From contig JAHEHL010000010.1 of the NCBI GenBank assembly GCA_024644595.1, positions 62,001-126,000 on the forward strand: a DNA stretch of 64,000 nucleotides. Direction: 5' to 3'. Of the stretch, positions 27,359 to 45,932 are shown in pieces. The DNA comes from Porticoccaceae bacterium. Lineage in GTDB: Bacteria > Pseudomonadota > Gammaproteobacteria > Pseudomonadales > Porticoccaceae. Position numbers and translations under genes: made by a program. The notes below the pieces were generated by a model. It made no database searches and was not told where the DNA came from. It was given only the letters and a program-made list of their open reading frames with translations. Numbering within the stretch: the first letter of the stretch is position 1; each line of letters starts with the position of its first letter.

Positions 27359-29890
27359 TTAAAAGTTTTTGCGCACTGTTAGACCAAAGGTTCGTGGCGC
27401 GTTGGGGTAACCGCTAAAACTGCCGGGAGAGGCGGTTGTCGGGAAAGCAGAAATTAAGGACTGATGGTCTGTTAGATTCCGGCCCCAGATCATTGCATCC
27501 CAGCCATGTTGTTCACTGCTTACGCCTACGCTGGCATTGACGTTATTAGATCCGCGGCTGGCGAGGCTGCGGGGAATCAGGTCGACTATTGCAATATCAT
27601 CATCATAGACATATTCAAGCCGGGCAAAACCGGCGAGCTGGTCGCTTACCGCAAATGAATAAACCGTGTTGGCATTGATGCTGACCCTGTGTATTCCCGC
27701 TGGTGTCAGGCTAGTAAGATCTACACTGCTTTCACCTTCAGGGCACTGATATTCGGGTCCGGCGAGGCCGGTAGTATCACAGGTGGCATGGCTAAAGGAG
27801 TCGTAGACCGGATCAATAAAAATACCTGACAGACCCAGTACCAGGTTCTCTGATAGCGCGACAATACTGTCAAACTCGACTCCTTCATGGGTTTGTTTGC
27901 CGGCATTGACCAAATCAAAACCGACACCAGAGAAAACGTTGGACTGAAAGCCGGCGATTGACTGATTGAAATAAGCGAGATTGAAATAGCCATTTTCGAA
28001 CTCGGTTTTGATGCCGATTTCATAGACCTCGGCTTCCTCTGGATCAGCTGCGCGCTGCCCGGGGATACGCCCATCGATGGTCATGTTGACCGATGCCGCC
28101 TTAAACCCCGTCGCGTGATTCACGTAGAGTTTAATAGTGTCTGAGAGGTCGTAGGCCAACCGCAAAGTGTGGGTTAGATCATCGGAATCAAAGCGCCCCG
28201 ACTCGCTGCCATTGGGATAATTGGGAAAGGCTTTGAAGAACTGGAGTCCGGAGAGCGCTCCAAGTCCGGCAGTATCCAGCGGCAAGCCGGCGAAGGCGTC
28301 GATAATCTGCACATTAGCGCTGACATCCTTGCTGTCATCGGTGTAGTCGAGACCCAGGGTCAGTGTCAGAGCATCGGTCAGTGGGTATTCGATCTGCCCG
28401 AAGAGCGAGTAAGTACGGCTGTCCATGGTAAAGTTTTCAGCGACATCACCGGTTCCCGGCACGAAGAAGATATCGCGGCAGGACACTGTATTGACGACAC
28501 AGACGCCAAATGCCGCACCGACATAGTTGAGCCCCGATCCACCCACTGGACCCAATGCCGATGCCACTGCGCTGGCACCAAAGGCCTCTGCGCCGGCAGC
28601 GGGAAAGCCGGCGGCCAGGTAGCCCTCGATAGCTTGTGCGGCTATGGCGGCGGAGAGCCCGGCAGTGACCAGAAAGTCGGCGTAGTCGTACATCTGAGTG
28701 CCGTAGGTGACATTGCGGAAGGTGGCTACATCTTCACGGGAATAGTAGCCGCCGACCATCCACTGAAACGGACCCTCCCCATTTGAGGTCAACCGCACTT
28801 CCTGGGTCAGGGTATCGAAATCGTAATCAGTGCGGTTCTCTTCGACCAGATCGGCAGCGGAGAAGTCGGCATCAAAGTTGGATCTCACTGACTGATCGCG
28901 TGCGGCAGTGATAGAGGTCAATGTGGCAAAGCTGAGGTCATAATCCAGTTCAACTGAAAGACCTTTGCCCTCAAGTTTATTGTTCGGGCTGAAATTCATA
29001 TACAGATCTCGCGCCCAGGGATCGATTGGCGTCTGCAGGCCACCTGCGAGAGCACTGGAGACTGCCGCGGCACTGCCATAGACCAGCGAGCTGGCGGCGC
29101 AGCACTCTTCATCCATGTCATTCCAGTCAGCAATAACCCGAATGCTGAGATCATCTGAGGGCTCAATTAACAGTTGTCCACGCACCGCCGAACGATTGCG
29201 GTTGTTGACATCGCTGTTATCAAACAGATTGTCGGCATAGCCATCACTACTGTTGCTGCTGGCTGACAGCCGGTAGGCGATAGTGTCAGTAACGGGGCCG
29301 GTGACAGTCCCTTTCACTATTTTCGAACCATAGTTGCCAGCCGTGACCTCTAGCATGCCGCCAGTTTCCTCTTCCGGCAGGAGGGTAGAAACGCTGATGA
29401 CTCCGGCGGAGGCATTTTTGCCGAACAGAGTTGACTGCGGGCCGCTGAGCACTTCTACCCGCTCAATGGTGGGCAAGTCGGCCAGCGCCGACGCCGATCG
29501 GGTGCGGGCAACGCCGTCGATATAAATGCCGACGGCGGGTTCAATGCCGGGATTGTTGGCGCCATTGCCAAAACCGCGAATGATAAAGTTAGTTTGAGCC
29601 GAGCTCTGCAGTTGACTGACGCGCAATGTGGGTACTGCGGTTTGCAGATCGATCAGGTCGACAATACTGGACTGTTGAATTTGTTCGGCACTGGTCACCG
29701 ACACGGAGACCGGAATATCCTGCAGGCTCTGTTCGCGTTTATTGGCGGTGACGATCACTTCTTCGATGGTTGCCGATGCCAGATTGGCTATCAGTAGCGC
29801 TGCGGTTGTCACCACTGCATGAAGCCGGCGTCGGGTGCTTGATTGATATGCTGTGCAGATAATTTTGGGTGTCTTTGTTTCAATATTCAT
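27359..29890 (-). CDS. TonB-dependent receptor
   Basis: EEVIVTANKREQSLQDIPVSVSV, VEVLSGPQSTLFGKNASAGVISV plug motif; C-term FGLTVRKNF. Confidence 0.93.
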   Translation of the reverse strand: MNIETKTPKIICTAYQSSTRRRLHAVVTTAALLIANLASATIEEVIVTANKREQSLQDIPVSVSVTSAEQIQQSSIVDLIDLQTAVPTLRVSQLQSSAQTNFIIRGFGNGANNPGIEPAVGIYIDGVARTRSASALADLPTIERVEVLSGPQSTLFGKNASAGVISVSTLLPEEETGGMLEVTAGNYGSKIVKGTVTGPVTDTIAYRLSASSNSSDGYADNLFDNSDVNNRNRSAVRGQLLIEPSDDLSIRVIADWNDMDEECCAASSLVYGSAAAVSSALAGGLQTPIDPWARDLYMNFSPNNKLEGKGLSVELDYDLSFATLTSITAARDQSVRSNFDADFSAADLVEENRTDYDFDTLTQEVRLTSNGEGPFQWMVGGYYSREDVATFRNVTYGTQMYDYADFLVTAGLSAAIAAQAIEGYLAAGFPAAGAEAFGASAVASALGPVGGSGLNYVGAAFGVCVVNTVSCRDIFFVPGTGDVAENFTMDSRTYSLFGQIEYPLTDALTLTLGLDYTDDSKDVSANVQIIDAFAGLPLDTAGLGALSGLQFFKAFPNYPNGSESGRFDSDDLTHTLRLAYDLSDTIKLYVNHATGFKAASVNMTIDGRIPGQRAADPEEAEVYEIGIKTEFENGYFNLAYFNQSIAGFQSNVFSGVGFDLVNAGKQTHEGVEFDSIVALSENLVLGLSGIFIDPVYDSFSHATCDTTGLAGPEYQCPEGESSVDLTSLTPAGIHRVSINANTVYSFAVSDQLAGFARLEYVYDDDIAIVDLIPRSLASRGSNNVNASVGVSSEQHGWDAMIWGRNLTDHQSLISAFPTTASPGSFSGYPNAPRTFGLTVRKNF

Positions 29891-30212: not shown

Positions 30213-31406
30213 TTACGACGTGGCGGGTTGTTCCTGAGCATGGCGCGCGTAAATTGCATCGCGTTTTTTCGGGCAGATATTAACCTTTGAAAGGTCTCCC
30301 TGAATATGGGGTAACTGGATCACGCGATGATCCATAACTCGGTACCAAAGCCAGGGGATATAGGCCAGCAGGTACATCCCATAGTAGCCGTTGGGGAGTT
30401 CTGGAATGTCCTTGAAGTTACGCAGGCTTTGATAGCGACGCATAGGGTTGGCGTGGTGATCTGAGTGGCGCTGCAGATGGAATAGGGCCAGGTTGCTCAT
30501 AATGTAGTTAGCATTCCAGGAGTGGTGGGGTTGGCAGCGTTCATAGCGGCCATTGGCTTGTTTTTGCCGCAGCAGCCCATAGTGTTCGATGTAATTGGCC
30601 GAGGTCAGTTGATACCAGGCCCAAAAATTGTGAATTGCCAAAAACGGCAACATTATCCAGCCAAACAGATAGATCAGGCTGCCCTGTAAGATGGCGCTGA
30701 GCAGGTAGGACTGCAAAATTTCATTTTTTGCTGACCAGGTGCTGAGGCCCTTTGTGTTGAGTCTGGATTTCTCCAGATTCCATCCGCGCACCATGGTCCC
30801 CGGAATTTCTCGCCAGATAAAAGCATAGATTGACTCACCCATTCGTGAACTGGCCGGGTCATCCGGCGTGGCAACCAAAACATGGTGGCCGCGATTGTGT
30901 TCAACACAGAAGTGGCCATAGGCGGGAACCGCCAGCGCCAGCTTGGCCATCAACTGCTCGATAGCAGTCTGTTTGTGGCCCAGTTCGTGAGCGGTGTTGA
31001 TCCCCAGGCCACTGTAGCCGCCGGCAACAATTGCCGTGACCACGACCGACCAGATGCTAAGGTCGTTGGTGCCAACCACGTAGGCCAGGGCAATTAGCAC
31101 GACAAAATGCATGGGCACTGTCATACAGGTGAGAATCCGGTAATAGGTATCCTGTTCCAATTGCGGCACCAGCTCTTCCGGCGGATTATTTTCATCGCTA
31201 CCAATTAACCAGTCGATAATCGGCAGGCACAGATAGTTGACGACTAATGGCAGCGCCAGGGTCCACTCAGCGCCGGTACGGTAATAGAAGAAAACCCCCA
31301 TCAATGGGAAGGCGGGCATCAGAAACGAGGTAATCCAGAGATAGCGCTTGTTATCAGAGTAGCTAATGGACCCGAGAGTTGGATGATCGAGCTGGTATGT
31401 TTTCAT
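30213..31406 (-). CDS. alkB: Alkane 1-monooxygenase (AlkB-type membrane diiron hydroxylase)
   Basis: His boxes NTAHELGHK, EHNRGHH, LQRHSDHHANP, plus NYIEHYGL signature; start at 31406 preferred. Confidence 0.95.
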   Translation of the reverse strand: MKTYQLDHPTLGSISYSDNKRYLWITSFLMPAFPLMGVFFYYRTGAEWTLALPLVVNYLCLPIIDWLIGSDENNPPEELVPQLEQDTYYRILTCMTVPMHFVVLIALAYVVGTNDLSIWSVVVTAIVAGGYSGLGINTAHELGHKQTAIEQLMAKLALAVPAYGHFCVEHNRGHHVLVATPDDPASSRMGESIYAFIWREIPGTMVRGWNLEKSRLNTKGLSTWSAKNEILQSYLLSAILQGSLIYLFGWIMLPFLAIHNFWAWYQLTSANYIEHYGLLRQKQANGRYERCQPHHSWNANYIMSNLALFHLQRHSDHHANPMRRYQSLRNFKDIPELPNGYYGMYLLAYIPWLWYRVMDHRVIQLPHIQGDLSKVNICPKKRDAIYARHAQEQPATS

Positions 31407-31620
31407 TATTTTTCTCAGCTTTATAGTTATTATTTTGCTAAATCCTACACGTCTGTTCAACAGAAAAGCAAATAGCCGATTTTGATGACTGTTTTGACGC
31501 ATAAGAGTGTCGCTGTATGGTATATCGAGACGATGAATTCGTTTTACTATGACAGCCGAAACAGAGCCCGATTGCGGCTATGCTCATAGGAATATATTAG
31601 TTAAGGGGTTTGAATCCAAA

Positions 31621-35270: not shown

Positions 35271-36857
35271 TTATGCCGGATAGCCGGTTATGGCCCTGAT
35301 TGCCTGATAGCTGGGCTTCAGACGTTTATACATCTGTAGATAGACCTGCCTGTAAAGCTGTTCGTAAACCCGATGATTGTCTGCAATCGGTTCAAAGCGA
35401 TCACCTGCATGGGTCATGTTAGCGGCTGCGCTGGCAAAGTCAGGGTAGACACCGCAACCCACCGCAGCGGCGATTGCCGCGCCCAGAGCCGATGTTTCGT
35501 AGGTGTGTGGGCGTTCCACCGGCATACCAAACACATCGGCAGTAATCTGCATAATCTGATCGCTCTGCGAACCGCCGCCTGAAACCAGCAGTCGGGTAAT
35601 TGGTTGTTTGCTGCGTTTTTCCATGCGTTCTTTGCCGGCGCGCAGGGCGTAGGTCAGGCCCTCAATAATGGCTCGGTAGAGGTGGGCGCGAGTATGTACA
35701 TCGCCAAAACCGATAATGGCGCCCTTGGCTTCGGGGCCTTCATTATCTGCGCCGGCACCCCAGTACGGCTGGAGTGTCAATCCCATAGAGCCGGCAGGAA
35801 CCTGTTGTAGCAAATTATCGAATAGTGACTCCGGGCTAACGCCTTGTTGCGTAGCTGCGCTCTGTTCAGGTTGTCCGAATTCCTGTTTAAACCAACTTAC
35901 CATCCAATAGCCTCTTGGCACCATCATCTCGACATTAAAGCTGCCGGGAGTGACGCCGGGATAAGCGGGATGAAAGGGAATCGCCTCGAGGTATTTCGCG
36001 CTGGAGATGTTGAATGTGGCCGTGGTGCCATAGCTCAGACTGCCGGTATTGCTATCGATACAGCCGCTGCCGAGTACCTCGCAGGCCTTGTCCGAACCGC
36101 AGGCGATCAGTGGCAATCCCACTGGTATACCCGTTTCGTCGGCAGCCTGTTGGCTGATGTGACCGAGTGTTTGGCCGGCAGCAACCAATTCTGGCAGCAT
36201 CTCGCGTTTGATTGCTGGCAGGGCGCGCCATTTCCAGTCATTGCTATCGGCCCACTGCAATTTTTCAAAATCAAACGGCAAAAATCCTACTTGGCTGGCA
36301 ACGGAATCTGTATAGCTGCCGGTGAGCTTATAATTGTGATAACCCGATAACAGCAGTAGTTTATCGACCTGCTGCCACAGTGCCGGCTGATTGGCCGCGA
36401 TCCAGTTAATTTCTGCCTGAGCGTGAAAGAAGTCCACAGCCTGTTTGGCGCCCACTGCGCGCATTAACAGTGACTCAACCGCGCCGAGCTCGGGCTTGGT
36501 ATCGACCTGGCGCTGATCCAGCCAGCTGATAGCCGGACGCAGCGGTATACCCTCAGCATCCATGGGTATCACCGTTGCACGTTGAGTGGTGAGCGATACA
36601 GCTTTGATTGCGTCTCGGGGAATATCAAGTTGCTGCCAGAGTTGTGCACAGGCCTGACACAGTGCTTGCCAAAAATAGTCAGCGTGCTGTTCGGCCCAGC
36701 CCGGCTGATCAGAAAAGTAAGGCTCAATCTCTATTTTAGTTTTCGCTATCAGCTGTCCGTTATGGTCAAAGACGATGGCACGGACGCTCTGGGTGCCGTT
36801 ATCGATAGCGAGAAAATAACCTGGGCTTTGCTGTGACTGGTTCATAGTGACCTGCAT
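35271..36857 (-). CDS. FGGY-family carbohydrate kinase
   Basis: FLAIDNGTQSVRAIVFD N-term; LVSGGGSQSDQIMQITADVFGMPVERP C-term FGGY signature. Confidence 0.92.
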   Translation of the reverse strand: MQVTMNQSQQSPGYFLAIDNGTQSVRAIVFDHNGQLIAKTKIEIEPYFSDQPGWAEQHADYFWQALCQACAQLWQQLDIPRDAIKAVSLTTQRATVIPMDAEGIPLRPAISWLDQRQVDTKPELGAVESLLMRAVGAKQAVDFFHAQAEINWIAANQPALWQQVDKLLLLSGYHNYKLTGSYTDSVASQVGFLPFDFEKLQWADSNDWKWRALPAIKREMLPELVAAGQTLGHISQQAADETGIPVGLPLIACGSDKACEVLGSGCIDSNTGSLSYGTTATFNISSAKYLEAIPFHPAYPGVTPGSFNVEMMVPRGYWMVSWFKQEFGQPEQSAATQQGVSPESLFDNLLQQVPAGSMGLTLQPYWGAGADNEGPEAKGAIIGFGDVHTRAHLYRAIIEGLTYALRAGKERMEKRSKQPITRLLVSGGGSQSDQIMQITADVFGMPVERPHTYETSALGAAIAAAVGCGVYPDFASAAANMTHAGDRFEPIADNHRVYEQLYRQVYLQMYKRLKPSYQAIRAITGYPA

Positions 36858-36863
36858 TTTTTA

Positions 36864-38495
36864 TTATCGTTTTTGTGGCTGTCTGCCAGGCAAGCTGTAA
36901 AAGCGCTGCCAGATATCCTGATAGCGACTGACTTCCTGTTGCCAGCGCGCGCTGTCCCAGCCCAGTTCTGAGTTACAAATAGGTTCAAGGGAGGTAAACA
37001 GTTCGCTGCCTCCGTCGCGCAGTAACATTCCCAGGCGAGTGCGGCGCAAGAGCAGGTCATCGAGATGAATCACCGCTTCATGACGCGCGGCCCAGCGGCA
37101 TTCGGCCAGACAAAACTCTGTGTTGGCGATGCGGAGATGCTCTTCTGGCGGTGTGGTTTCCAGAATCGCTTTAGCCTTTGAACCATAGCGTCCGAGCAGA
37201 CGTTGTCCCCAAGTTGGATTGTCGGGAACCAGTTGCTCGGCACTGATGTCGGCTGTGGTAAACACCGTTTCATCTGTAAACGGCTGTGGTTCTGGCAGAT
37301 GTTCGCGGGCGGCGCTCAGGGCATCCAGTGCGATAAGTCTGAACGTGGTCAGTTTGCCACCGCTGACTGTAATCAAACCGTTGTCAGACCAGACTGCATG
37401 ATCGCGGCGCTCCCGAGAAGGGTCTTTGGATTTTTCCGAGCCGATCACTGGCCGCACTCCGGCCCAGGTTGAAATAATATGGCTTCTATCGATTGGGGTG
37501 GCAGGAAACTGCACATTAAATGCACGCAACAGATAGTCGACTTCAGTGTCACTGATGCAGGCTTCAACATCCAGGTCATCGGCATGATCGAGATCTGTGG
37601 TGCCAATCACCGTGGCGCCTTCCCAGGGGTAGACATAGACTCCGCGCTTATCATCCGGGTGTAGAGAGGTCAGAACGTCGGTCAGCGGCAGCAGCTGATG
37701 GGGAATAATTAAATGGCTACCGCGCAGTGGTCGAATACGTTTTTCAGGATTGAGCTGGTTGCGCAGACGATCCGCCCAGGCACCGGTGGCATTGATAACC
37801 GCCGGTGCGTGGAGTTGCAGGGTGCGACGTTGCTGATTACTCTCGAGGTCGCAAACAACAATTCCCTGAACCTGGTTGTTATCGATTATGAGCTTGCCGG
37901 CTTTGGTGTAGTTGATCGCGGTGCCACCGGCCTCAATGCTTTCCTGTAACACACGCAGAACCAGTCGTGAATCATCGACCATGGCATCACTATAGGCTGC
38001 GGCGCCATTAAGATGTTGCTGCTGGAGGCCAGTAAATTTTTCCCCGAGGCGCCGATTACTGAAATAACGATGGTCGCGAATGCCAGCAATAAAATCGTAA
38101 ATTGTCAGGATAACCGCCATGGCCCAGCGGCCGGGGAATAGCCCTTTGCTGATGCTGAAATAAAAGCTGATGCGGTCGACCAATCCGGGTGCTTCTTTGA
38201 GCAAGCGTTCGCGTTCGCTAAGGCTCTCTCTGGTCAGTTTAAGGTCGCCTGCGGCAAGGTAACGCAGACCACCATGAATCATTTTTGATGAGCGACTCGA
38301 GGTGCCGGATGAGAAATCGGTCTGTTCGATTAGCAGCGCACGATAGCCTCGTCGCGCTGCTTCGCGCAAAATGCCAGCACCGGTGATGCCGCCACCAACA
38401 ATCACGATATCCCAGTGCAGCGATTCACCGCGGCTCATTTGCTCAAGCAGTTGCTCGCGTGAGGTGAATAATGCGTTGTGCATATTACTGCTCAT
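36864..38495 (-). CDS. FAD-dependent glycerol-3-phosphate dehydrogenase (GlpD-like)
   Basis: WDIVIVGGGITGAGILREAARRGYRALLIEQTDFSSGTSSRSSKMIHGGLRYL; 11-nt overlap with upstream gene. Confidence 0.93.
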   Translation of the reverse strand: MSSNMHNALFTSREQLLEQMSRGESLHWDIVIVGGGITGAGILREAARRGYRALLIEQTDFSSGTSSRSSKMIHGGLRYLAAGDLKLTRESLSERERLLKEAPGLVDRISFYFSISKGLFPGRWAMAVILTIYDFIAGIRDHRYFSNRRLGEKFTGLQQQHLNGAAAYSDAMVDDSRLVLRVLQESIEAGGTAINYTKAGKLIIDNNQVQGIVVCDLESNQQRRTLQLHAPAVINATGAWADRLRNQLNPEKRIRPLRGSHLIIPHQLLPLTDVLTSLHPDDKRGVYVYPWEGATVIGTTDLDHADDLDVEACISDTEVDYLLRAFNVQFPATPIDRSHIISTWAGVRPVIGSEKSKDPSRERRDHAVWSDNGLITVSGGKLTTFRLIALDALSAAREHLPEPQPFTDETVFTTADISAEQLVPDNPTWGQRLLGRYGSKAKAILETTPPEEHLRIANTEFCLAECRWAARHEAVIHLDDLLLRRTRLGMLLRDGGSELFTSLEPICNSELGWDSARWQQEVSRYQDIWQRFYSLPGRQPQKR

Positions 38496-40098
38496 CCGCG
38501 AGTAACTTACCCGGATTCATTTGTCCGTTGGGGTCAAATAGTTTGCACAGCGCAGCGATAGAGGCGAGTCCCAGCTCGCCTTTCTCTGCAACCAGATAAT
38601 CGCGATGGTCGAGTCCGACGCCATGCTGATGGCTGATAGTGCCACCACAGGCTACGGTTGCGTTGGCCCCAGCAGATTTAAGTTTTTGCCAGCGCTGCAT
38701 AGCCTGCTGGTAACTGTCGCCGAGGCGGAACAGGTACGTGGTATAGATGCTGGACCCCTGCCCATAGACATGACTGAGATGAGTGTAGGCATGTACCTGT
38801 TCACCCTCGTCTGCAAGCGCTGTACGAATTGCCGTTTCGATCGATTCAACGGCTGAGGACAGTCGCGACCAGTCAACAGCGGTCTCCATGGTATCGGCGG
38901 CATAGCCTGCTCGGCCCAATGGATCTCGCAGGTAGGGTGCACGAAAACGACCGTGTGCCCAGTTATCTCCAAGCCCCATCTGGTCGACAATGCCACCCAG
39001 TTTGGTGCAGTGCTCAAGCGCCATTTGCTGGGCGAAATCACAGTGGCGGACACTTCCCGTAACACCAAAAGTCATCATTACCTTGCCGGTGCCAATGCCT
39101 TTTTCAGCTAATGCTTCCTCCAGCGCAACCACGCCGCTGCTATCTTCACCGGCGCCCATGTAGAGTAAGCTGGTTGTTTCCAGAGGGTTGCTGAGGCGTA
39201 CCATCGACAGCGCGATACGCTGCTGGATCAAATCTCGGGCTGCCTGCAGACCCACTTCCCAGGAGGGAAAGAAAACCACCTGAAAGACCTCTTTTTCGGG
39301 CAGTGGTGAAATGCGCACCGTGACGTCGGTAATAATGCCCATACGGCCTTCAGAGCCGAGAATCATTTCACGAATATCCGGTCCTGCAGAGGAGGAGGGG
39401 ATGGTGGGAATCTCAAGTGTGCCGGCAAGGGTTTCAATTGATGCGCCGGCAAAGAGTTTTTCGATACGACCATAATGCAATGACTGCTGGCCACTGGAGC
39501 GGCTGGCAACCCAACCACCAATAGTTGAAAGCTCCCAGGACTGCGGGAAGTGTCCCAGTGTGTAACCATGTTTTTGTAGTTGGGCCTCCACGTCCGGGCC
39601 GCTGGTGCCGGCGCCAAAAGTAGCTAGCAGGCTCTGCTGGTCGATATCAATGAGTTTATTCATCGCGCCCATATCAATTGTCAACACGGGCCGTGCGCTG
39701 GCTTGAGGATTTATGTGGCCGACCACCGAAGTACCACCACCATAGGGGATCACGTCGATATCATTATCTTTGGCATAGCCGAGTAATTCGCGCACTTGCG
39801 CACTGGATTCGGGAACGGCCACGGCATCGGGGAAATGGCCAACATCGCCACTGTGCATGGCCAACCAGTCGGGCAGGCTCTGGCCGCGAGCGTGACGAAC
39901 CCTGATTTCCGGATCTGTGCTAATAAGCGCATGGGCCGGTGCCCTTGAAGTCGGCACGCAAGCGATCACCTCTGCTAGCGTGGCTTCCGGTAATGGTTTG
40001 CCAGAACCGACCAGAGCTTCCAGTAAACCTTTCAGGCCGCTGTTAAGTTCCATCAACAGCTCACTGTTTTCTTTTCCCCAGCCATTCCAAAGACGCAT
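38485..40098 (-). CDS. FAD-binding oxidoreductase of the alkylglycerone-phosphate synthase (AGPS)-like family
   Basis: HFPDAVAVPESSAQVRELL, VIPYGGGTSVVGHI, GYTLGHFPQSWELSTIGGWVASRSSGQQSLHYGRIE, SHQHGVGLDHRDYLVAEKGELG; start 40098 preferred over 40410. Confidence 0.85.
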   Translation of the reverse strand: MRLWNGWGKENSELLMELNSGLKGLLEALVGSGKPLPEATLAEVIACVPTSRAPAHALISTDPEIRVRHARGQSLPDWLAMHSGDVGHFPDAVAVPESSAQVRELLGYAKDNDIDVIPYGGGTSVVGHINPQASARPVLTIDMGAMNKLIDIDQQSLLATFGAGTSGPDVEAQLQKHGYTLGHFPQSWELSTIGGWVASRSSGQQSLHYGRIEKLFAGASIETLAGTLEIPTIPSSSAGPDIREMILGSEGRMGIITDVTVRISPLPEKEVFQVVFFPSWEVGLQAARDLIQQRIALSMVRLSNPLETTSLLYMGAGEDSSGVVALEEALAEKGIGTGKVMMTFGVTGSVRHCDFAQQMALEHCTKLGGIVDQMGLGDNWAHGRFRAPYLRDPLGRAGYAADTMETAVDWSRLSSAVESIETAIRTALADEGEQVHAYTHLSHVYGQGSSIYTTYLFRLGDSYQQAMQRWQKLKSAGANATVACGGTISHQHGVGLDHRDYLVAEKGELGLASIAALCKLFDPNGQMNPGKLLADEQ

Positions 40099-40273
40099 TG
40101 TAATTACCCTGTTATTGTTGATTTTTGTAGTTTGTTGTTGAGACTTGTCAATGACCGATATAATAAGCGAGATTGAAAATTGATCACTGTCAGCCAACGA
40201 CAGGCGCATCACTAATTCGGCCAGTGGTTGCGTATTTTGGTTGTGATAAAGGGGCCTTATCCCGGATAAAAAG

Positions 40274-41308
40274 ATGAATGAAATTCTCAGTAGTGGATTG
40301 GCTTCGGTGCCAGCGATAAAACAGTATTTAAGCGCTGCGGACGCCTGCGGGCTGGAGTGTCGACCATTTTTGAAGAAGGCTGGAATCGACCCAGAGATCG
40401 TCAATAACAATACGCATTATCTGCCCAATGCATCCATGGAGCGCTTGTTAAAGTTGTTGATACCCGCAAGCGGTGATCCCTGTTTTGGTCTGAACTCTGC
40501 GCGTTATGTGGAGCCCGCCTCTTACAGCGTGCTGGGTTACATCTCGATGAACTGTTCTACTCTGCGAGCGATTCAGGCGAAGATTCCTCTCTACGAAAAA
40601 ATCGTCGGTGATATGGGCGTTACCACGGTGGAAGTCGCCAATGGTTTTGCTCTGCAGCGTTGGCAGTGTGTGTTCAGTGATCCTGAAGTCAAACGCCACG
40701 AAGTGGAAAATGTGATTGGTTCATGGGTTTGTTATGCGCGTAATTTTTTAAATTTCTCTGGCTGGGAAAGCGTCTGGTTTGAGCACTCTGCCCCTGAGGA
40801 TCCGGCGCTTTTGGCCAACTACCAGGAGATTTTTGACTGTGAAGTGCTGTTTGATCAGTCTGTGAGCGGCATCCGTATGCAAGAGAGTTTGCTCGATGTG
40901 CCCTTACCTCAGGCTAATGAGCAGTTGCTAGAGATGTTATTGGCCCATGCCACCAAGCTGCTCGCCGAGCTCGACAAAGGGCAGCGCACGACGGATCAGG
41001 TCAAAAATATTCTTCGCTTGATGCTTAAACAGCAACCACCCTCCAGCGAGATGATTGCAGAAAAGCTCGGTATCAGCAGTCGCACTTTACAGCGCAAACT
41101 CAGTGAGGAGGGTACGCAATACAAAGATGTGCTCAATGAGTTGCGTTATGAATTGGCGATCTATTTTTTGAAAAATACCGAGCTGACGCTAGAAAATATT
41201 GCCTACGAACTAGGCTATGCCGAAGCTCGATCATTTTATCGCAGCTTTAAACAATGGACCGGTCACACTGCTGGTTATTATCGGTCCGAACTGCTTAATA
41301 ATCCCTAG
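40274..41308 (+). CDS. AraC-family transcriptional regulator
   Basis: C-terminal HTH AEKLGISSRTLQRKLSEEGTQYKDVLNELRYELAIYFLKNTELTLENIAYELGYAEARSFYRSFKQWTGHTAGYYR. Confidence 0.93.
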   Translation: MNEILSSGLASVPAIKQYLSAADACGLECRPFLKKAGIDPEIVNNNTHYLPNASMERLLKLLIPASGDPCFGLNSARYVEPASYSVLGYISMNCSTLRAIQAKIPLYEKIVGDMGVTTVEVANGFALQRWQCVFSDPEVKRHEVENVIGSWVCYARNFLNFSGWESVWFEHSAPEDPALLANYQEIFDCEVLFDQSVSGIRMQESLLDVPLPQANEQLLEMLLAHATKLLAELDKGQRTTDQVKNILRLMLKQQPPSSEMIAEKLGISSRTLQRKLSEEGTQYKDVLNELRYELAIYFLKNTELTLENIAYELGYAEARSFYRSFKQWTGHTAGYYRSELLNNP

Positions 41309-41311
41309 CCA

Positions 41312-42289
41312 TTATTTCTGCAACAAACCTCGATCCTCGGCCCACTGCCTAGAATAGTGCATTCCCTGTTCCAGGGAGACTTCCGGCTGCCAGCCGAGAA
41401 TGCGCTCGGCTTTGGCGATACTAAACCAGCTCGTGGTCGATAATTGCTCCACCGTTGCCGTCGACGCTTCGTTGATGCCACCGGTCAGATTGGCCATTTT
41501 GGTCGCTGCTGAAGCAGCGAATTTTGCCAGTCTGGTGGAGACTAGCATGGGCCCCTTTTTATTAAGCCAAGCATAGTGATAGGAAAAAAATTGTTTGGTC
41601 GTGATGTAACCCTGGCAGGAAAGGTTAAAGATTTCACCATTGGCTTCGGTACAGTCCACGGCGAGACGAATGCCGCGCACCAAGTCATCAATATAGATCG
41701 GGCGGAAAAATCCCTCGCCCTTTGATGGCAGCATAAACTGACCTTTATGAATCGCTTCCAGCGGCAGGATAACCCAGGGTCGGCTGCCAGGACCGTAAAC
41801 ATCTCCGGGGCGCACAATAACCACCTCAATGGATCCACGGGCATGGGCGGCCAACACAACATGTTCAGATGCCAGTTTGGTCAAAACATAGCTGCCGCCA
41901 TCGGCATGTACTGGCTGGTCTTCGGTCAATTCGCCAGTCGCGCTATTGCCATAGGCCACAATCGATGAAAGCTGCACAAAACGTTTGACCTGGTGGCGCT
42001 CAGCGGCGGCAATAAGATTAGCCGTCGCCTGCACATTGACACGCCACATATCGGTATCTGCCATTGCGTTAGAGACCAGCGCCGCGGTGTGGATAATCAC
42101 ATCACACTGCTCGAGAAGGTGGCTGATGGTCTCCGGTGCAGAAATATCCCCCTGGAAAATGTCTTTGCCATTGGCTTGCAGATCAATGCCGATTGCATCA
42201 ATTCCTCGCGCTTGGTAGTCGCGTAAAAGACTGTTGCCAATAAAGCCATTGGCGCCGGTGATCAATATTTTAGTTGTCGGTTGTTGCAT
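41312..42289 (-). CDS. NAD(P)-dependent epimerase/dehydratase (3-beta-HSD-like SDR)
   Basis: ILITGANGFIGNSLLRDY, SYVLTKLASEHV (YxxxK), VIVRPGDVYGPGSRPW. Confidence 0.9.
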   Translation of the reverse strand: MQQPTTKILITGANGFIGNSLLRDYQARGIDAIGIDLQANGKDIFQGDISAPETISHLLEQCDVIIHTAALVSNAMADTDMWRVNVQATANLIAAAERHQVKRFVQLSSIVAYGNSATGELTEDQPVHADGGSYVLTKLASEHVVLAAHARGSIEVVIVRPGDVYGPGSRPWVILPLEAIHKGQFMLPSKGEGFFRPIYIDDLVRGIRLAVDCTEANGEIFNLSCQGYITTKQFFSYHYAWLNKKGPMLVSTRLAKFAASAATKMANLTGGINEASTATVEQLSTTSWFSIAKAERILGWQPEVSLEQGMHYSRQWAEDRGLLQK

Positions 42290-42320
42290 AACGTCTCCGG
42301 ATTATTTTTTGCTGATACCC

Positions 42321-43118
42321 TTACTGCATATTGCTGCGGTAAAAACGCCCCGCAATTCGCGCCAGCGCCATTCGTGAGAACAGTCTGGTAATGGCGACGG
42401 TGATGCGATTAGCCCATCCTGTGACGATGGTAGCGCGGCCGCTAAGGCATGCATCAATTCCCTGCGCTGCAACCTCGGAGGCTGGCTGCAATAGTGAGCT
42501 GGGTACGACTAACTTGCCTCCCTGAGCTGGATTATCCATCATTTTTGTTGCCGTGTAGCCCGGGCATAGTGCGGTTACAGTAACCCCACAATCTAACGCT
42601 TTGAGCTCATTGTGCAGCGCTTGGGTGAATGACAGCACATAGGCCTTGGTCGCGGCGTAGACATTTTGATTAGGAATAGGGGTCCAGGCGGCGAGTGAGG
42701 CGATATTTAAAATATGCCCCCCGCCCTGATTTATCATCTGGTTGGCAAACAAATGGGTCAGCGAGGTCAGTGCCAATACATTGACGTGGATCATCTTCTC
42801 TTGAGCGACAAGATCCAGCTCCGTGAAAAAGCCGTTATGCAGCAGGCCTGCGTTATTGATCAGGAAGTCCACCTGCAGATCGCGCTCGCGGACATCTGTA
42901 AATAGCTGCTGGGCAGCTTGAGGCTCTGCGAGATCGCAAGTTATGACAGTGCATGAGATTGCGTTATTTTGCTGTTGTAAATCAGCGGCAATTTGCTCAA
43001 GCAGAGCCATACGTCTGGCCACCAGAATCAGGTTATAACCTTTTGCGGCAAGAATTTTGCAGCATTCGAGGCCAATACCATCGGAGGCTCCAGTTACCAG
43101 CGCGGTGTGATTTCTCAT
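42321..43118 (-). CDS. Short-chain dehydrogenase/reductase
   Basis: ALVTGASDGIGLECCKILAAKGYNLILVARR, LINNAG, YAATKAYVLSFTQAL. Confidence 0.93.
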   Translation of the reverse strand: MRNHTALVTGASDGIGLECCKILAAKGYNLILVARRMALLEQIAADLQQQNNAISCTVITCDLAEPQAAQQLFTDVRERDLQVDFLINNAGLLHNGFFTELDLVAQEKMIHVNVLALTSLTHLFANQMINQGGGHILNIASLAAWTPIPNQNVYAATKAYVLSFTQALHNELKALDCGVTVTALCPGYTATKMMDNPAQGGKLVVPSSLLQPASEVAAQGIDACLSGRATIVTGWANRITVAITRLFSRMALARIAGRFYRSNMQ

Positions 43119-43304: not shown

Positions 43305-45932
43305 TTAGAAGCTAAAGCTAATGCGTGCGCCCCAGGATTCGCCAGAGCTCATGTAACGCCAGTGAGAGCCGGATGCCAGTGGAACATCGGCTGCACCTTC
43401 AGCTGTCATTTCGTCAGTGATGTTGCGGCCATAGAGCATCAGATCCCAGTTTTCTCCGCGCAGACCGGTGCGGAAATTAACCTTCTCAAAGCCTTCCTGG
43501 TAATCAACTGGATCGAGATCGCCGGTCATATAGAAACCGTCAGTAAAGTTAACATCGACGCTGGTAAACCAGATCAGACCATTGGACAGTGGGCGAACAT
43601 AGTCGGCAAACATCGCTCCGGAGTATTTTGCGCCGATTTGGCCACCAGCCAGATCCTGGCTGATTCCTGTTGGTGCGCCGCCGTCAAACTGCTGAGTACA
43701 GCCGTCAAAGGAGATTTGCGGAGAGTTTGGAGTCAATGTCCCCAAGCCTATCAAGCCAGAGGCCTGTTCAGCTGTGCAGCCTGCACCAGGGAAAGAGCCA
43801 TATTCACCGTCGAGGTAGGCTACGTTAGCACCAAGAGTAAGGTTGTCGGTCGCCTGCCAGGTCATATCAACTTCGATACCATCAATATTTGACGATGCCG
43901 CGTTGGCAACCACAAAGCCCAAGCCAACAAATGTTGACACCTGCTGATCGACATATTCACTGTTAAAGATTGCCCAGTTCAGATTCATGGCGCCATCTAA
44001 CAATGTGTGCTTACCACCAATCTCAAGTGAGCTGGCCGTTTCATCTTCATAGGACCAACCCAGACCTGGCGCGGTACGATCCGGTACTGTTGTGACTGTA
44101 ACACCTGGTGCCACGGTTACATTGAGAAGCTCCGGTTTTTGGTCATCAACCGAGTTAAAGCCACCGCTTTTGAAGCCCTCTGAATAGCTAACATAAACCA
44201 TGCTGGTATCAGACAGTTTCCATTCCAGATTTGCCGCAGGCATCATCTGGTCAGTTGAGCGCTTATCTTCAAACTGGTGGTTATAGGTTCCGAAGAGTGC
44301 GCTCACCAAAGGCTCAAGGAGAGGTGCTTGGCTTGGCGTCGCCAGGCCGGTGAATCCTTCGGTATTCTTGGTGAAAGCCGTCGCTGTTTTGTCCTCTTCC
44401 GTATAACGGATACCGGCAGTCAGAGTTAGATTCTCCGTGATGTTATAAGATCCCTGGAAGAAAGCGGCCCAGGAGTCGGTATCCTGCTGCCAGTTTGAAA
44501 CACGTCCAACTGACAACCATAGGGTCTCACCTGGCACACCTGCTGCATAGCTGGTGGGAGTGCCCATCAGTGCATTAAGACCATTTATTTGAGCAACCTG
44601 TGTTGGATTAAATGCCAAAAATGTCGGTGAACCACCCAATATAGAGGCCAGAAATGATGGAACGCCAAGGGTTCCGTCAACCGCCACAACTCGGTCAATA
44701 ATTTGCGTTTGCTCTTCCCAGTAAACGCCGGTAATAAATGAAAAGTCACCGTCAGTGGAGGAGCTTAATCGGAATTCCTGGCTGGTTTGCTCGTAGTCTG
44801 AAATATCACTGCGACCAACAAAGTTAACGGGCAGGCCATCGGCATCGATACCGTCTTCATAGTCGTAGCCAACTCGACCGGTAACCGAGGTAAACGTGTA
44901 GCCGTTATCCAGTTCGACATCGATATTCAGAGAGGTGTCGGCGGTATTGGTGTGTGTGCCTTCAGGTTTTTCGCCGCCGCTCTCACAGAGAGCTGATGAG
45001 CGTCCCAGAGAGGCTTCCAGTGCACAGCCACCAAATGATTCGGCATCACGATAGGCATCATAGTTTCCGCTCGCCAGTGCTGAGGCAAATCCCTGAGCAT
45101 ACGGGCCATAGAACATGGCACCATACATAATTGCATCTGCCGCGCCAGTGTTGGCAACCGGTTGGAACTGGTTAATGACGATGGTTGAACCAGTGCGAGT
45201 CTGCTCGCTCTCGGCATGCTTAAGTTTAACCGCGACGTTATCTGTGGGTTCCCAAGATGCGCTCAGGCGCCACATGGTCTCGTCAGCGCTTGGCGAATCT
45301 TCATTGGCGAAGCTGTTGTACAGGTAACCATCGCTTTGACGGTCTTTAACGGCAAGGCGCAGCGCTAAGGTGTCGGTCACTGAGCCTGCAATGTGCCCTT
45401 GAATGATCTGACCACCATAGGACTCTTTGGAAACATCAAGCTTGCCGCCGAATTCATCACCGACATTGGCGGAGGCTGATGTGACATTGATTGCGCCGGC
45501 CAGCGTGTTCTTTCCGAACAGAATCCCCTGAGGACCACGCAGCACTTCAACCTGTGCCAGATCGAACATACCGGTTCGGAACTGACGACCCTTGGCCATG
45601 TGCACGCCGTCTACATAGAGGCCCACTGACTGTTCAAATGATTGCTGTGCGCCGGGACCTACACCACGCATATATACACCCGTGGCAACCGCATTTTCCG
45701 ATACGCTCAGGTTGGGTACATAGGCCGCTAGATCCTGGAAGCTGTGCATCGCAGTTTCCTCGATCTTTTCACCAGAGATAGCCGTCATCGATATAGGCAC
45801 ATCTTGCAGGCTTTCTGCGCGCTTCTGCGCGGTTACGATAACCTCTTCAAGCTGGGCAGCGTATGCTCCGCTGGAAATTGTAGCGATGGCTAACGCCAGG
45901 CCACTCAGTTTAAGAAATGAGCTTTTCTTCAT
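43305..45932 (-). CDS. TonB-dependent receptor
   Basis: LEEVIVTAQKRAESLQDVPISMTAI, VEVLRGPQGILFGKNTLAGAINV; C-term aromatic SFSF. Confidence 0.93.
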   Translation of the reverse strand: MKKSSFLKLSGLALAIATISSGAYAAQLEEVIVTAQKRAESLQDVPISMTAISGEKIEETAMHSFQDLAAYVPNLSVSENAVATGVYMRGVGPGAQQSFEQSVGLYVDGVHMAKGRQFRTGMFDLAQVEVLRGPQGILFGKNTLAGAINVTSASANVGDEFGGKLDVSKESYGGQIIQGHIAGSVTDTLALRLAVKDRQSDGYLYNSFANEDSPSADETMWRLSASWEPTDNVAVKLKHAESEQTRTGSTIVINQFQPVANTGAADAIMYGAMFYGPYAQGFASALASGNYDAYRDAESFGGCALEASLGRSSALCESGGEKPEGTHTNTADTSLNIDVELDNGYTFTSVTGRVGYDYEDGIDADGLPVNFVGRSDISDYEQTSQEFRLSSSTDGDFSFITGVYWEEQTQIIDRVVAVDGTLGVPSFLASILGGSPTFLAFNPTQVAQINGLNALMGTPTSYAAGVPGETLWLSVGRVSNWQQDTDSWAAFFQGSYNITENLTLTAGIRYTEEDKTATAFTKNTEGFTGLATPSQAPLLEPLVSALFGTYNHQFEDKRSTDQMMPAANLEWKLSDTSMVYVSYSEGFKSGGFNSVDDQKPELLNVTVAPGVTVTTVPDRTAPGLGWSYEDETASSLEIGGKHTLLDGAMNLNWAIFNSEYVDQQVSTFVGLGFVVANAASSNIDGIEVDMTWQATDNLTLGANVAYLDGEYGSFPGAGCTAEQASGLIGLGTLTPNSPQISFDGCTQQFDGGAPTGISQDLAGGQIGAKYSGAMFADYVRPLSNGLIWFTSVDVNFTDGFYMTGDLDPVDYQEGFEKVNFRTGLRGENWDLMLYGRNITDEMTAEGAADVPLASGSHWRYMSSGESWGARISFSF

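Follow-up and report, generated by a model that had tools for sequence, protein, structure and literature searches.

An operon encoding an AGPS-type flavoprotein in Porticoccaceae: a candidate unit for the breakdown of 1-O-alkylglycerols

Introduction

What would a bacterium do with an AGPS-like flavoprotein encoded in tandem with a glycerol-3-phosphate (G3P) dehydrogenase and an FGGY kinase? The question is raised by a locus in a 64,000-nucleotide stretch of a Porticoccaceae genome (contig JAHEHL010000010.1, positions 62,001 to 126,000), referred to here as the window. Three genes lie on its minus strand, encoding an AGPS-like FAD flavoprotein (38485-40098, 537 aa; PF01565 and PF02913, FAD_binding_4 and FAD-oxidase_C), a GlpD-like FAD G3P dehydrogenase (36864-38495, 543 aa; PF01266 and PF16901, DAO and DAO_C) and an FGGY kinase (35271-36857, 528 aa; PF00370 and PF02782, FGGY_N and FGGY_C). 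A GliR-like AraC-family regulator (40274-41308, plus strand; Arabinose_bd and HTH_18) is divergent from them. A first-pass annotation had read these genes as a unit that could either make or break down alkylglycerols or related lipids, and an open reading frame (ORF) list and a domain search recovered every ORF that it named, in place and with the family described. Our comparative evidence favors breakdown without proving the direction. We give about even chances to the operon being a GliR-type catabolic unit for 1-O-alkylglycerols, that is, ether lipids minus their head group and acyl chain. This reading is built on gene content, conservation, and family and residue signatures, from which we infer each catalytic step and its direction.

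Results and Discussion

The four-gene core is conserved and known from Pseudomonas aeruginosa

The core genes almost certainly form an operon of the GliR type. The AGPS-like gene runs 11 bp into the GlpD-like gene, and 6 bp separate the latter from the kinase gene; the median gaps between the core enzyme genes across 118 related loci were -1 and -4 bp. All three enzymes were kept in 100 of these 118 loci, from many genera, and they occurred together in 17 of 17 loci of the same genus. Such recurrence with tight spacing argues that the linkage is not due to chance; it bears out the single operon with a divergent AraC gene that had first been proposed, and supplies the neighborhood conservation that the first-pass annotation had suggested looking for. 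In 53 loci, the regulator gene occupied position -1 in divergent orientation. At least 584 related stretches were found, and a close copy of the core was present in 16 of the 399 genomes sampled across the phylum, mainly in the order to which the window belongs. Four loci titled as metagenome-assembled genomes of Actinomycetota, Desulfobacterales, Anaerolineaceae and Chloroflexi (L100, L158, L159 and L162) carried flavoproteins with 52-57% identity and are possibly mis-binned contigs.

The core is already known, a point overlooked by the first-pass annotation: the regulator, flavoprotein, dehydrogenase and kinase are the orthologues of PA3027 (GliR), PA3026, PA3025 and PA3024 of P. aeruginosa, respectively (PMC8151288). 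GliR activates PA3026-PA3024, the neighboring YegS lipid kinase gene PA3023 and the phospholipase C (PLC) gene PA3464, and the cluster had been counted in about a dozen genomes (PMC8151288). The regulator of the window has the position and family of GliR but falls outside the narrow Pseudomonas equivalog, its best NCBIfam match being NF050186 GliR with 361 bits, under the cut-off of 570. The divergent promoter region between the AGPS-like and gliR-like genes (40099-40273, 175 bp, no strand assigned) was read directly, and the published P. aeruginosa GliR motif A had no match within it at up to 2 mismatches. The ORF caller extends the flavoprotein frame to a TTG at 40410 (641 aa); the start at 40098 is supported by the N-terminus M(R)RWNGWG that the orthologues have in common.

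The flavoprotein is of the AGPS type

Sequence comparisons strongly indicate that the flavoprotein is of the AGPS type. Its closest solved relatives were AGPS (2uuu, E 8e-66) and guinea-pig AGPS (E 7.6e-56). The AGPS-type residues T309, R419, R515, Y578, H615 and H617 were invariant in 113 of 113 operon flavoproteins, and R419, R515, Y578 and H615 were present in none of the GlcD-type sequences; R419 and Y578 are also the residues mutated in the solved AGPS structures 4bc7 and 4bca, as their titles state. A maximum-likelihood tree, in which guinea-pig and Dictyostelium AGPS entered as partial sequences (matched stretches only) and the guinea-pig branch was long, placed a 100/100 branch between the operon, actinobacterial, polyethylene glycol (PEG)/dioxane-plasmid and eukaryotic AGPS proteins on one side and Escherichia coli GlcD and the genome's other FAD oxidase on the other. 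When the predicted structure (mean pLDDT 81) was searched with Foldseek, the first 37 matches were all AGPS chains, followed by the first D-lactate dehydrogenase. The AGPS-like assignment of the first-pass annotation thus stands, and no grouping with D-lactate or glycolate oxidases was found: the tree split, the differing residues and the AGPS-first fold matches rule out a GlcD/D-lactate dehydrogenase reading. We take Arg515 to lie near the substrate phosphate in AGPS; if this holds, its retention in the operon proteins would imply a phosphorylated substrate for the operon enzyme.

The kinase and dehydrogenase are dedicated paralogues

The specificity or signature residues of GlpK are Arg83, Glu84, Tyr135, Asp245 and Phe270 (PMC3245297). 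Arg83 and Asp245 were kept in 100 of 100 operon kinases; Glu84 was replaced in all of them (G in 62, A in 30, Y in 7 and S in 1), Tyr135 was mostly F (Y in 1/100), and in all 100 Phe270 was absent and Gln246 was replaced by K. The small residues at the Glu84 position could make room for an alkyl chain. The operon kinase scored 192 bits and failed the 590 cut-off of the GlpK family TIGR01311, whereas the genome's own GlpK retains all five specificity residues and scored 687 bits. A GlpK reading is ruled out by the change of three of the five positions together with this low score, and the kinase is, with high confidence from its sequence, something other than GlpK, as had been suspected at first pass.

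The genome (2.38 Mb, 98.9% complete) also holds a second GlpD, adjoining what by eye is a glycerophosphodiesterase-like gene. With a separate GlpK and a second GlpD available, the operon enzymes are therefore dedicated paralogues rather than the sole glycerol route. The operon GlpD-like protein scored 291 bits and did not pass the GlpD equivalog cut-off of 360, a weak test since the second GlpD is also below it (273 bits). The G3P-site residues Y55, R317, R332 and K354 of E. coli GlpD are retained in the operon protein.

A proposed route for alkylglycerol breakdown

In the proposed pathway, the substrate would be supplied through a TonB-dependent receptor in the window, or by PLC and outer-membrane proteins in Pseudomonas. 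The FGGY kinase would phosphorylate the alkylglycerol at its free terminal hydroxyl, and the GlpD-like flavoprotein would oxidize C2 of the resulting alkyl-G3P to give alkyl-dihydroxyacetone phosphate (alkyl-DHAP). The AGPS-like enzyme would then act on the alkylated C1 by the covalent chemistry of AGPS; water or a carboxylate would take the place of the alkoxide, and the ether would be cleaved to give a fatty alcohol and either DHAP or acyl-DHAP. This would be AGPS in reverse, with no O2 required. AGPS forms a flavin N5 adduct (PMC7662398, on ADPS), which water could in principle resolve. In the lineage of the window, the released alcohol or aldehyde may be processed by a short-chain dehydrogenase/reductase (SDR) and an epimerase. 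More tentatively, at somewhat less than even chances, we propose that this is a widespread O2-independent form of bacterial ether-lipid cleavage, in which the substrate is phosphorylated and oxidized at C2 before AGPS chemistry acts in reverse, and that marine SAR92 and SAR86 bacteria have a version of it that includes the SDR, epimerase and TonB receptor. A search of the open-license literature gave no account of bacteria catabolizing alkylglycerols in this way, which is weak evidence.

Several observations favor breakdown. The constant kinase and GlpD are unneeded for DHAP supply, yet they fit a conversion of alkylglycerol to alkyl-DHAP. No acyltransferase or fatty-acyl reductase was a constant neighbor among the 118 loci, and a PF07993 search of the window genome gave no clear fatty-acyl reductase, the only strong match being the operon's own epimerase. 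The accessory genes (PLC, DUF1302/DUF1329 and TonB receptor) fit attack on lipids and uptake rather than synthesis of acyl-DHAP and fatty alcohol. Breakdown is further favored by the AGPS-type active site and fold of the flavoprotein, by the genome's separate GlpK and second GlpD, by the activation of the PLC gene PA3464 by GliR in P. aeruginosa (PMC8151288), by the changed GlpK specificity positions, along with the filling of the kinase slot by a lipid kinase in Actinobacteria, and by the occurrence of AGPS-like paralogues in clusters of the ether-degradation type.

The accessory genes differ between lineages. In nine Pseudomonas-type loci, a member of the PA3464-type PLC family lies directly downstream of the kinase gene, followed in most of them by DUF1302 and DUF1329 outer-membrane proteins. 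This PLC-like protein had no PDB or Pfam match; its identity is supported by the copy in locus L143, which matches the published PA3464 quantitative PCR primers in the right order with 1 and 2 mismatches. Some Pseudomonas loci have both FGGY and YegS kinases. Plasmids of Tsukamurella and Streptomyces carry the arrangement GlpD-TetR-AGPS-like-YegS/Rv2252 lipid kinase (L169:4617-9255 and L170:4726-9528), so that the slot held by FGGY in Pseudomonadota is taken in Actinobacteria by an unrelated lipid kinase. The glpD gene beside an AGPS-like flavoprotein that the first-pass annotation had mentioned for mycobacteria is thus found in related actinobacteria; in Mycobacterium tuberculosis itself, Rv2249c-Rv2252 presumably has the same arrangement.

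AGPS-like paralogues also occur on plasmids of Sphingopyxis macrogoltabida, Xanthobacter dioxanivorans and Aminobacter, with a glutathione S-transferase (GST), a GMC oxidoreductase, an acyl-CoA ligase and mostly an aldehyde dehydrogenase (ALDH); the GST is adjacent at L166:8962-10617, L167:8962-10629 and L173:7962-9614. S. macrogoltabida has a PEG-carboxylate dehydrogenase that cleaves an ether (PMC7299911), and gene position and the GST partner suggest that this is the protein encoded on the plasmid. R515, retained in the operon proteins, is Met in these PEG/dioxane-plasmid proteins. On a Moraxella osloensis plasmid, an AGPS-like gene (L171:6953-8665) was seen with an acyl-CoA synthetase and an AraC regulator between Tn3 transposases, and an Acinetobacter plasmid gave a match resembling it.

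Alternative explanations

A number of observations weigh against alkylglycerol breakdown. His616, the middle of the His triad, is Gln in 109 of 113 operon flavoproteins and Asp303 is Gln in all 113. The AGPSs characterized so far make ethers, and that of Myxococcus xanthus has been assigned to plasmalogen synthesis (PMC11868695). The ether-cleaving PEG paralogue acts on a carboxylate rather than a phosphate. Linkage to PLC, DUF1302 and DUF1329 is confined to a minority of loci, and a PA3464-type PLC was not found in the window genome by a search run without a positive control. Deletion in P. aeruginosa left growth on Biolog plates and on glycerol without a phenotype, a test on alkylglycerol not being described (PMC8151288).

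The operon could instead serve ether-lipid biosynthesis, with the kinase and GlpD taking glycerol to G3P and DHAP, an acyltransferase encoded elsewhere forming acyl-DHAP, the AGPS-like enzyme swapping acyl for alkyl, and the SDR reducing alkyl-DHAP to alkyl-G3P. The AGPS residues are fully conserved in the operon flavoproteins, which speaks for this model. The scheme sketched for PA3024-PA3026 leads from glycerol to alkylglycerone phosphate and covers the first part of such a pathway (PMC8151288), M. xanthus AGPS does make an ether lipid (PMC11868695), and the human alkyl-DHAP reductase is DHRS7B (PMC13200781), itself an SDR. We nevertheless consider biosynthesis unlikely: three of the five GlpK specificity positions are changed in the kinase, cells do not require the kinase and GlpD to obtain DHAP, neither an acyltransferase nor a fatty-acyl reductase is a constant neighbor or, for PF07993, clear in the genome, and the operon is linked to PLC and uptake proteins. 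The PLC and DUF1302/DUF1329 genes in Pseudomonas, along with the lipid kinase of the actinobacterial version, indicate a lipid and make it quite improbable that the same kinase-dehydrogenase-AGPS logic is applied to a different glyceryl ether or conjugate, be it a glycerol bearing a short alkyl, aryl or glycosyl group or an ether of the surfactant kind, even if the chemistry requires just a 1-O-R-glycerol, FGGY kinases mostly use polar substrates and the paralogues occur in PEG/dioxane contexts. Ordinary salvage of glycerol or phospholipid glycerol, in which the kinase and GlpD would convert glycerol to DHAP and the flavoprotein would oxidize a 2-hydroxy acid, agrees with family-level annotation and with the release of diacylglycerol by the GliR-regulated PLC (PMC8151288). 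It is very improbable, as a separate GlpK and GlpD are encoded in the genome, the GlpK specificity residues are altered in 100 of 100 orthologues, the flavoprotein carries AGPS residues in place of GlcD-type ones, and the P. aeruginosa deletion grows on glycerol (PMC8151288).

If alkylglycerol breakdown is correct, it would account for a P. aeruginosa regulon that has so far lacked an explanation and provide a marker gene by which abundant marine bacteria that consume ether lipids could be recognized. AGPS homologues would then not be simple markers of ether-lipid synthesis, contrary to their use in metagenomic surveys (PMC11868695).

Neighboring genes and lineage-specific versions

Next to the regulator gene, the minus strand of the window encodes an extended-SDR/epimerase resembling OleD, HpnA and 3-beta-HSD (41312-42289; PF01370, Epimerase, and PF01073, 3Beta_HSD), a classical, mycolate-reductase-like SDR (42321-43118; PF00106, adh_short; NF040690 187 bits, cut-off 380) and a TonB-dependent receptor of 875 aa (43305-45932; PF00593 and PF07715), a possible uptake component that had gone unremarked at first pass. 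In solved-structure searches, only generic relatives of the SDR and epimerase were found. Elsewhere in the window, a PF00487 membrane protein of the fatty-acid desaturase/alkane-hydroxylase superfamily (30213-31502) adjoins a TonB-receptor-like gene (27359-29890).

The nearest named relatives of the genome, among the matches listed, were Porticoccaceae/SAR92 and SAR86 bacteria. The gene order in the 17 same-genus loci was SDR, epimerase, (GliR), AGPS, GlpD, FGGY, with extra ORFs intervening in 2 of them. All 17 had the epimerase and 16 the SDR, the contig of the remaining locus ending there; GliR was missing in 2 of the 17, so that the five genes adjoin. In SAR86, L042 and L060, the five genes share a strand, most gaps are shorter than 60 bp and the epimerase is directly upstream of AGPS. 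The SDR is paired with the epimerase in these loci and absent from those of Pseudomonas. A homologue of the window's TonB receptor adjoins the SDR in L175, L177, L180, L188 and L189, and in L042 and L085 the SDR is preceded by ORFs that belong to a single homology cluster (c64). One SAR86 locus (L087:3960-20074) is a long one-strand run in which GST, DsbA-like, DUF3604, SDR and epimerase genes lead into the core, with MerR, aldo/keto reductase, a second SDR, carboxyltransferase and hydrolase genes after it. In several Marinobacter (L104:3443-9884), the operon adjoins an apparent type II secretion cluster, as read by eye. The remaining neighbors (secretion, protease and chemotaxis genes, also by eye) look like local synteny rather than function.

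Comparison with known systems

The operon flavoprotein shares with eukaryotic AGPS (2uuu, 4bby) the fold and the six AGPS-type residues; it differs in its ~25% identity, in the change of D303 to Q and in the change of H616 mostly to Q. The PEG-carboxylate dehydrogenase and dioxane-plasmid FAD oxidoreductases belong to the same AGPS-like family and stand in clusters of the ether-degradation type, but they are ~28-29% identical, have Met at R515 and are partnered by GST, GMC, ALDH and ligase instead of a kinase and GlpD. In the actinobacterial cluster, GlpD and an AGPS-like flavoprotein are likewise accompanied by a kinase and a regulator; there, however, the kinase is YegS/Rv2252, the regulator is TetR, GlpD is divergent and the flavoproteins are ~37% identical. 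Compared with the P. aeruginosa GliR locus PA3027-PA3024(-PA3023), the window is without the adjacent YegS kinase (PA3023) and without GliR motif A in the promoter region, and it adds the SDR, epimerase and TonB receptor, whereas the four genes, their order and the divergent regulator are alike in both.

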